Below are positions 27,555 to 28,705 of a DNA stretch of 64,000 nucleotides, piece by piece. The notes under the pieces are model-generated. The model was not told where the DNA came from. It did no database searches and saw only the letters and a list, made by a program, of their open reading frames with translations. Source of the stretch: an uncultured Pelagibacteraceae bacterium (lineage in GTDB: Bacteria; Pseudomonadota; Alphaproteobacteria; Pelagibacterales; Pelagibacteraceae); the NCBI GenBank assembly GCA_902552985.1, contig CACDII010000001.1, forward strand, positions 62,001 through 126,000, written 5' to 3'. A program made the position numbers and the translations under genes. Numbering within the stretch: position 1 is the stretch's first letter; every line of letters begins with the position of its first letter.

Positions 27555-27901
27555 ATATAAGTTAATGCAATACTTTAATTTTATTATTTATATTCCTGAA
27601 ATTATTAAATTATTTATTGTATTTAAAGTAATACTTTAGATTATATATAAACTTTTTTAAATCAATTAAGCGGATATATAAATAAGAGAGAAACCACGTA
27701 AAATATGGTTTTTTTGATGTTAAAATTAGCATTGATGTATCAAGATTCTAGAGGATTGCAGAATCAGAATATAGCGTTTAAACGGCCATAGAAGGGGTAT
27801 ATTTTGAGATATATAGCTATAGAGTACAACCGAAGGGTGAAATTAAAAAAATTAGAATATATAGACTTCAAGAAGATAAAAAACGTTGGTAATATTGGCT
27901 T
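27555..27901. other. Gene-free spacer with a possible decayed reading frame
   Basis: 347 bases between convergent genes, unusually long for this genome. The first 130 bases are almost pure A+T. A plus-strand frame from 27686 to 27892 reads protein-like but is broken by TAG at 27749 and TAA at 27779. Its last open part (27782-27892) would encode 36 residues containing YSYRVQPKGEIKKIRIYRL. It may be a gene remnant or chance. A short inverted repeat GATTCT/AGAATC also lies here (27744-27766). Confidence 0.4.
27687..27715 (+). terminator. Possible intrinsic terminator after the DMT transporter gene
   Basis: AAACCA (27691-27696) pairs with TGGTTT (27706-27711) around a 9-base loop, and the 3' arm runs on into four more T residues. 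Weak A-U and G-U pairs could extend the stem outward. The stem is GC-poor and lies about 135 bases past the transporter stop, so the call is tentative. It could also serve the opposite strand. Confidence 0.35.
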
Positions 27902-28177
27902 TTAAAGCGAAAAACCTTCTTTTTTTAGGAGTTTTTTCTTAGCCTTTATGCCTCCAGGAGCTGAGAAACCACCAAGTGTTCCATCAGACCTAATAACTCT
28001 ATGACAGGGTATTTTAGGCGCATAAGGGTTCTTGCCACATGCATTAGCTACAGCTCTCGCTGATTTAGGCATATTGATAGCAATCGCTACTTGTTTATAG
28101 GTTTTTACTTTACCTTTACGTATAGTTTTTAAATATTTCCAGACCTTTATTTGAAATTTAGTTCCTTTTAAGATCAT
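27902..28177 (-). CDS. MGMT-family DNA alkyltransferase-like protein, minimal form
   Basis: 91 aa, equal to the C-terminal DNA-binding/alkyl-acceptor domain alone. FQIKVWKYLKTIRKGKVKTY, then RAVANACGKNPYAPKIPCHRVI with the acceptor Cys in PCHRV, then a GGFSAPGG-type ending. Because Cys is present, it is not an alkyltransferase-like protein, which carries Trp there. The usual N-terminal domain of Ogt is absent. It lies directly downstream of the structured RNA on the same strand, with only 6 bases between. Confidence 0.88.
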   Translation of the reverse strand: MILKGTKFQIKVWKYLKTIRKGKVKTYKQVAIAINMPKSARAVANACGKNPYAPKIPCHRVIRSDGTLGGFSAPGGIKAKKKLLKKEGFSL

Positions 28178-28183
28178 AATTTA

Positions 28184-28368
28184 GGAAAAAACCCCTGTTT
28201 CCTTGCACTTTTTACGGTGCAAAGAACAGTAGTTTTGGCACGTCGTTTAATGCGCTACCGCCATGCCTTCCGCTCCACATGTTTAGCGCTGCTTTGTAGA
28301 GCTTTCTGCCCCCTGGGCTTGAACCTCTCGGTTTTTCCCCAATCGGCCAGTTAAGGGTTGCCCCTTAA
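28184..28368 (-). ncRNA. Candidate structured RNA, GC-rich, pseudoknotted (family unknown)
   Basis: GC-rich island in an AT-rich genome. On the minus strand: hairpin 28368-28351 with a GCAA (GNRA) loop; closing helix 28340-28330 with 28193-28184; helix 28302-28296 with 28278-28272 (7 pairs, one G-U); loop bases 28289-28284 pairing with 28257-28252, making an H-type pseudoknot with a 14-base linker; hairpin 28222-28217 with 28208-28203. The G-U pairs and GNRA loop work only on the minus strand. A frame reading AACGAC..., with its stop in the last hairpin loop, recalls tmRNA, but no tRNA-like T arm or CCA was found. 6S RNA or a leader of the MGMT gene are alternatives. Confidence 0.5.
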
Positions 28369-28464
28369 TTAAATAGAACTTAACAAAAGCTAAAGGTTGA
28401 AAGTATCACTTTTTTGGTGAATTATTTACATTTTACACAGGGCTGAATAGTGGGGAAAACTTTT

Positions 28465-28629
28465 TTAATTCATTAATAGATACAAAAGCACAAATATACT
28501 TAATAAAAATAAACCAAAAACAATCATTAATATTTTATTTTTAGTTATTTCAGAAGCTTTTGACCAAAAATTCATAATCACAAATAATAATATTGGTACG
28601 GCTAAACCAATTAAAATGTATTTAGGCAT
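28465..28629 (-). CDS. Small two-helix membrane protein, 54 aa
   Basis: Open frame with ATG at 28629-28627 and TAA at 28467-28465. It has two strongly hydrophobic segments (residues 4-20 and 33-53) joined by a short polar turn (WSKASEITKNK). Codon use is like its neighbours and the hydrophobic pattern is unlikely by chance. The gene is on the same strand as the structured RNA and MGMT, and divergent from the integrase. I do not recognise a family. Confidence 0.62.
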   Translation of the reverse strand: MPKYILIGLAVPILLFVIMNFWSKASEITKNKILMIVFGLFLLSIFVLLYLLMN

Positions 28630-28680: not shown

Positions 28681-28705
28681 TTCCGATAATTAATGGTTAT
28701 CGGAA
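28681..28705. repeat. Perfect 9-7-9 inverted repeat between integrase promoter and start codon
   Basis: TTCCGATAA (28681-28689), spacer TTAATGG (28690-28696), TTATCGGAA (28697-28705). It begins right after the -10 box and ends 6 bases before the integrase ATG. Two 9-base arms around a 7-base centre have the geometry of a tyrosine-recombinase core site. The location also suits an autorepressor operator, or a hairpin in the leader RNA. Confidence 0.65.

Follow-up and report, generated by a model that had tools for sequence, protein, structure and literature searches.

The locus considered here raises the question of what kind of RNA is specified by a compact, GC-rich block in the genome of an uncultured Pelagibacteraceae (SAR11) bacterium, and how such an RNA would be controlled. 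Within the window (the whole stretch of DNA that was analysed, 64,000 nucleotides), an original prediction made from the letters alone had singled out a 185-base block as a pseudoknotted RNA of the minus strand, which might be a divergent part of tmRNA, a 6S-like RNA, a cis-acting leader of the adjacent MGMT gene or a member of a new class. When searched against Rfam, as that prediction had proposed, positions 28375-28235 of the minus strand match the IMES-2 family (RF02035) with 158.1 bits, well above the gathering cut-off of 54.7 (E 1.5e-41). The match extends over all 141 of the 141 model positions, with helices identical to those of the family in the Rfam alignment and no structural difference between the IMES-2 motif and the window RNA, and the next-best Rfam matches over the same stretch are at chance level (E 1.1 and E 6.1). 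The RNA is thus already catalogued and does not represent a new class. The IMES-2 motif was reportedly described by Weinberg and co-workers in 2009 from marine environmental sequence, and it is an orphan family of such sequence whose transcript is reportedly abundant. In searches of the open-licence PubMed Central literature, the word IMES-2 was found solely in one squid genome paper; the main text of a study of 'Cand. P. ubique' (Meyer, 2009; PMC2704228) contains neither the word IMES nor 6S RNA, and the main texts of three further papers (PMC2864571, PMC5069720, PMC13414033) carry no mention of IMES.

The RNA core (28235-28375, minus strand; model positions 1-141, with covariation in 54 homologs) is followed by a hairpin and U-run at 28232-28186, so that the 185-base block corresponds to the RNA together with an apparent terminator. 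Its G+C content (0.46-0.57 in 100-base windows across 28200-28399, compared with 0.18-0.34 directly outside) is as high as had been described, although the MGMT gene itself reaches 0.47, and the contrast is therefore with intergenic DNA rather than with all of the surroundings. The assignment to the minus strand is likewise borne out by folding, with a minimum energy of -71.4 kcal/mol (z -4.5, and none of 200 shuffles equally low) compared with -56.9 kcal/mol for the plus strand (z -2.8, 2 of 200 shuffles equally low). An antisense 45-aa ORF (28217-28354, plus strand) is not kept, as all antisense frames are interrupted by stops in 58 of 70 homologous loci. A phage origin found no match among 50,697 phage records; a conserved 18-base IMES-2 word does occur in one IMG/VR contig, within a long ORF that presumably resembles a phage structural gene, and was taken as a chance match.

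A conserved fold under selection

The 70 homologous loci reduce to 61 different RNA cores. The upstream alignments comprise 60 homologs, one with too little upstream DNA having been excluded, and the alignment used for covariation (A1) was drawn from a different set of 60, in which one sequence with N had been left out, and holds 54 of them after exclusion of five close copies and one cut row. On the minus strand, the RNA begins with hairpin P1 (28351-28368), which is capped by a GCAA tetraloop and is paired in 100% of alignment cells, with changes on both sides in 4 of its 7 pairs. This is followed by the long hairpin P2/P2b (28306-28350), which includes an inner, GAGA-capped helix, and by two further hairpins, P3 (28272-28302) and P4 (28237-28267), whose loops supply the 5' strand GCGCUA (28289-28284) and the 3' strand UAGCGC (28257-28252) of a pseudoknot, respectively. 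P1, P2/P2b and P3 are drawn from the Rfam alignment together with covariation, and P4 from covariation.

Across the 54 homologs, 92.8% of the cells in the 45 pairs (pseudoknot included) are standard, compared with 77.3% in shuffles, and compensatory changes on both sides are found in 33 of the 45 pairs. The covariation score of 0.501 compares with 0.204 +/- 0.007 in shuffles and with at most 0.115 in slid controls. The pseudoknot helix is paired in 96.6% of cells and shows compensatory changes in 2 of its 6 pairs (such as CG to UA and GC to AU), while RNAalifold, which is blind to the pseudoknot, proposes 33 pairs of its own, 27 of them with compensatory change. The family secondary structure is thus reproduced in the homologs, its weaker points being helix 5, with 79.6% of cells paired, and one pair of the Rfam structure (columns 127/146), which is never standard in the alignment. 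The fold is conserved under selection.

Much of the predicted architecture is recovered in this structure. The GNRA (GCAA)-capped hairpin is present in the Rfam structure, the minimum-energy fold and the covarying structure alike, the helix whose loop pairs downstream is the pseudoknot described above, and the final hairpin is also present. The exception is a closing helix proposed between 28340-28330 and 28193-28184, which finds no support: its arms (GGGGAAAAACC and GGTTTTTTCC) are complementary, but in the Rfam, minimum-energy and covarying structures the second hairpin (P2/P2b) takes up the 5' arm, and the 3' arm is the U-run that follows the terminator-like hairpin. Between 7 and 11 of the 11 arm bases can be paired somewhere downstream in the 61 RNAs; since any A-rich arm beside a U-run would pair in this way, the count is not decisive for the closing helix.

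A stand-alone gene with a patchy distribution

Beyond the 3' end of the Rfam model, the core is followed by an intrinsic-terminator-like hairpin and six U (28186-28232, minus strand), recognised from sequence and fold. A similar hairpin of -8 kcal/mol or better lies before a T-run just downstream of the RNA in 62 of the 70 homologous loci. A simple terminator scan reported no terminator in the window, possibly because its stem rule may not allow bulges. The next gene downstream, a neighbour and not part of the RNA, encodes an MGMT/Ogt-type protein of 91 aa (27902-28177, minus strand; PF01035, 108.7 bits; TIGR00589). Further on, the MGMT gene is separated from an EamA transporter gene by some 350 intergenic bases (27555-27901), which show a strong positive GC skew over much of their length and no Rfam match over cut-off, and which are perhaps a decayed gene.

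The neighbours of the RNA differ among the 13 loci compared: in 2, both from the window's genus, MGMT is the downstream gene, in 8 an MnmA-like gene lies upstream and a convergent gene for a membrane-like protein downstream, in 2 (g9) the neighbours are SNase and SRAP, and in 1 (g7) they are SelO and RmuC (the family names rest on Pfam and NCBIfam searches in the window and in a single locus per remaining context, and were given by eye elsewhere). Throughout, the order of upstream boxes, promoter element, RNA and terminator-like hairpin remains constant, and because this module stays in place while the neighbours change, the upstream elements belong to the IMES-2 RNA gene. In the single set of loci examined closely, L199 and L201 against L061, the whole cassette is also cleanly absent between the same two neighbours, boxes and terminator-like hairpin included. 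IMES-2 is a stand-alone gene in its own right. Upstream of it in the window, between IMES-2 and a recombinase gene, there is a 54-aa membrane-protein-like ORF without a Pfam match (28465-28629, minus strand), and relatives have similar short ORFs in the corresponding position, whether or not they carry IMES-2 (L199, L201, L061).

In searches whose filters lose some weak matches, IMES-2 was found in 134 of 197 Pelagibacteraceae genomes, representing 12 of 14 genera and always as a single copy, and in 200 of the 397 genomes (6 of 13 genera) of a sample of the order, all 200 being Pelagibacteraceae. A scan of named genomes for the conserved 18-base word gave at least 120 matches, and the 80 of these that were listed are all assigned to Pelagibacteraceae, Pelagibacter or Pelagibacterales. 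Within the window's own genus, the presence of IMES-2 is patchy. Rfam searches did not find it in 20 near-complete genomes of this genus (completeness 94-100%; six consist of a single contig), and a model that includes divergent homologs (R1) gave nothing below E 0.019 in the same 20 genomes; matches of E 0.019-0.5 occur in 8 of them, and Rfam, applied to five of these eight places, reports nothing over its cut-offs. The idea that a narrow model had missed the RNA was accordingly rejected, as was a supposed divergent copy in G344, where the match is cut by the contig end. A replacement by IMES-1 (RF02034) was also dismissed, as no match over cut-off exists in the 197 genomes; the one weak match (27.4 bits) is in G123, a carrier of IMES-2. 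On a tree of 32 MGMT proteins, 10 from genomes without and 22 from genomes with IMES-2, its presence requires three changes, two of them forced by well-supported branches, with the caveat that MGMT, being a short protein, may have a history other than that of the genomes.

These observations bear directly on the functional readings first attached to the block. As a cis-acting leader of MGMT, either an attenuator or a riboswitch, the RNA would be expected to accompany that gene, and in the window the MGMT gene indeed lies on the same strand, 8 bases after the U-run, and it also follows the RNA in relatives within the genus. This linkage is not conserved, however: MGMT stands beside the RNA in only the two loci of the window's genus and is not a neighbour in the 11 loci examined from other genera, while it persists in 10 of the 10 IMES-2-lacking genomes searched, and the terminator-like hairpin stands between RNA and gene. 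With a terminator-like hairpin before MGMT and neighbours that differ across lineages, a leader function is very unlikely. The most tempting lead, a divergent or split coding piece of tmRNA with the tag ALNDVPKLLFFAP and a stop codon in the terminator loop, drew on a frame (GCA TTA AAC GAC ... CCG TAA) that runs into the hairpin loop of the window, and alpha tmRNA does have a pseudoknot. Yet the genome carries an ordinary alpha tmRNA (RF01849) at a separate locus (G000:C2:132989-133287), with 241.2 bits against a cut-off of 50, and the same model finds no match at the IMES-2 locus down to E 10. Nor is the tag frame kept in the homologs, as AACGAC is absent from 23 of 61 and the other 38 would yield peptides of 4 to 57 residues; the CGAC of this supposed tag is instead paired, as the 3' strand of the final helix of the core. 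With an ordinary tmRNA elsewhere and homologs of this kind, we regard the tmRNA reading as ruled out for practical purposes.

A resemblance to 6S RNA is similarly confined to general features, the IMES-2 product being a small RNA of comparable length, about 190 nt. That it might be a functional stand-in for a 6S RNA seemingly missing in SAR11 gains some appeal from the finding that the 6S model (RF00013) matches nothing in 197 of 197 Pelagibacteraceae genomes, whereas it matches 5 of 14 control genomes, Caulobacter included, in searches whose filters lose weak matches. A 6S RNA has the architecture of one long bulged rod, in contrast to the several hairpins and pseudoknot of IMES-2, and the 20 near-complete genomes of the window's genus have neither IMES-2 nor a recognisable 6S RNA. 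No 6S match was found in the window's own genome either, so that the block is not recognisable as 6S-like, and a substitution for 6S appears improbable. In the Pelagibacteraceae at large, 6S RNA may have been lost, or it may have diverged beyond the reach of the model and filters used.

The upstream module and its predicted control by DnaA

The DNA upstream of the 60 different homologs, which represent 12 genera, contains two conserved words. The one nearest the RNA is a promoter-like element with the consensus CAAYnAnnAAGTGAT(A), present in the window as CACCAAAAAAGTGATA (28404-28419, minus strand), about 45 nt upstream, which probably overlaps a -35 region; a possible -10 element, TTTGTT, lies at 28387-28382 as part of the putative promoter region. 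A sigma-70 scan returned no promoter at the expected place on this strand. Searched for in 24 genomes, the motif (CAAYNANNARGTGATA) occurs 8 times, twice at IMES-2, compared with 9 occurrences of a reversed control pattern, and taken alone it is therefore not specific. The four occurrences in genomes that lack IMES-2 (G063, G074, G149 and G170) were inspected by eye for some other RNA behind the motif and were rejected, as they have neither boxes nor a GC-rich RNA. A longer pattern combining box and promoter found nothing in 12 genomes, carriers of IMES-2 included, as it was too strict.

The second word, further upstream, has the consensus TTATCCACA and is represented in the window by TTTTCCCCACTATTCAGC (28442-28459, minus strand), with a second copy in part of the homologs. 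It corresponds to TTATNCACA, which we take to be the usual 9-mer of the standard DnaA box, a consensus derived from other bacteria and assumed here to hold for SAR11; to our knowledge, no other factor recognises it. At -97 to -60, 55 of the 60 homologs carry TTATNCACA with at most one mismatch (21 exact and 34 with one mismatch; the remaining 5 have two), compared with 0 of 60 on the opposite strand, 0 of 60 further upstream and 2 of 59 downstream. From the background of sampled G043 DNA, an exact site would be expected in 0.05% of such sequences, and one with no more than a single mismatch in 1.8%. The stretch from -97 to -60 was chosen after the alignment had revealed the box positions, and the homologs are related and not independent. 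When the whole 140 nt are considered, a site with at most one mismatch is present in 58 of 60 homologs, compared with 11.5% of shuffles, although the best site of several homologs is then a different one, further upstream. In 17 of the 55 homologs, another box-like word (ATTCACA or ATTAACA) lies one helical turn further along. Boxes conserved near the promoter, as in a DnaA-controlled gene, are thus a feature of the family, whereas the window's own box (TTTTCCCCA), one of the weakest, departs from TTATNCACA at two positions, so that regulation by DnaA could be lost or weak in this particular genome.

One DnaA gene is found in each of the 5 genomes searched, and the C-terminal end of these SAR11 proteins looks ordinary, as far as we can judge. 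A box with one mismatch lies within 120 nt upstream of the dnaA frame in 2 of the 5 genomes, exact boxes in none. The sampled blocks of the G043 and G009 chromosomes contain no convincing cluster of boxes of the kind sought as oriC, and the boxes at IMES-2 are accordingly not read as an origin. A less likely alternative is that IMES-2 acts in trans from a promoter that is ordinary or under some other regulation, with the TTATNCACA-like sites serving another factor or an unusual promoter and DnaA having no role. Such an arrangement would accommodate the likewise strong conservation of the promoter-like element nearest the RNA, which is no textbook promoter, the degenerate boxes of the window and the lack of exact boxes upstream of dnaA itself; set against this are the fit of the conserved word to the standard DnaA 9-mer and the second box-like word in 17 of 55 homologs.

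The reading we favour, with moderate confidence, is that IMES-2 is a stand-alone, trans-acting RNA gene of the Pelagibacteraceae whose transcription is predicted to be set by DnaA. The gene would be transcribed on the minus strand, from a promoter of its own that lies just upstream of 28375, and transcription would end at the Rho-independent terminator-like hairpin (28232-28186), giving a product of about 190 nt with four hairpins, the third and fourth joined by the pseudoknot, and the terminator. From the boxes, which lie about 75-90 nt upstream, bound DnaA would probably set transcription, so that the level of the RNA would follow the replication or growth state. The RNA itself is expected to act in trans, putatively within a ribonucleoprotein, a role that fits its compact, covarying and pseudoknotted fold better than that of a simple antisense RNA. 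More tentatively, the cassette may be a travelling unit built around DnaA boxes, a replication-timed RNA regulator of SAR11 that is dispensable in some sublineages.

A link between DnaA and IMES-2 was not found in print in the open-licence PubMed Central literature. The nearest analogue in logic, with no claim of kinship, is CcnA of Caulobacter, likewise an alphaproteobacterial ncRNA of similar length (182 nt), with DnaA boxes at its locus and a link to the replication machinery (PMC8959179). As described there, CcnA lies inside the origin, is transcribed from a CtrA-box promoter, has weak DnaA boxes within the gene and acts on the ctrA and gcrA mRNAs (PMC8959179). The IMES-2 boxes, in contrast, are upstream of the gene rather than inside it, and the position of IMES-2 with respect to the origin and terminus, as defined by skew, is not fixed in the two chromosomes sampled, whereas CcnA is part of the origin (PMC8959179).

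To what was known of IMES-2, the present analysis adds a host family and host genomes, a terminator-like hairpin beyond the end of the model, covariation of the pseudoknot, a conserved upstream module of box and promoter element, and patchy absence within a genus. The tie to the Pelagibacteraceae, the proposed gene ends and control region, and the natural presence and absence of the gene make its function testable. If DnaA drives IMES-2, the replication initiator of SAR11 would have an RNA as one of its direct outputs, and a cassette that is both replication-timed and dispensable would constitute a natural experiment on the coupling of growth and replication in streamlined ocean bacteria.

Chromosomal position and the adjacent recombinase

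In the window, IMES-2 lies at the replication terminus, and roughly so in the G043 chromosome, but not in that of G009 (sampled in 40 and 20 blocks of 20 kb, respectively); the location at the terminus is therefore not a property of the RNA. Beside it, a tyrosine recombinase gene (PF00589; 28712-29629, plus strand) starts 6 bases after a 25-base palindrome, TTCCGATAATTAATGGTTATCGGAA (28681-28705). In the window, this gene coincides with the maximum of the cumulative GC skew, and in the sampled chromosomes of G043 and G009 it lies near that maximum; it is the sole PF00589 match in each of G000, G043 and G003, with two matches in G009. Palindromes of this kind, in one of two types (TTCC..GGAA or TANN..NATA arms), precede the recombinase in 4 of 5 loci and are present in 10 of 10 MGMT loci that lack IMES-2, the loci outside the window being L308-L311 and L198-L207. 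Recombinase and palindrome together resemble a Xer/dif unit with a single recombinase, situated at the SAR11 terminus, whereas one study states that Pelagibacter ubique is without a dif/Xer system (PMC2731167). The recombinase scores far below the cut-offs of the NCBIfam models for XerD, XerA, XerC and XerS, and its best match by sequence among solved structures is the XerC-like recombinase 4a8e (E 7.6e-10).
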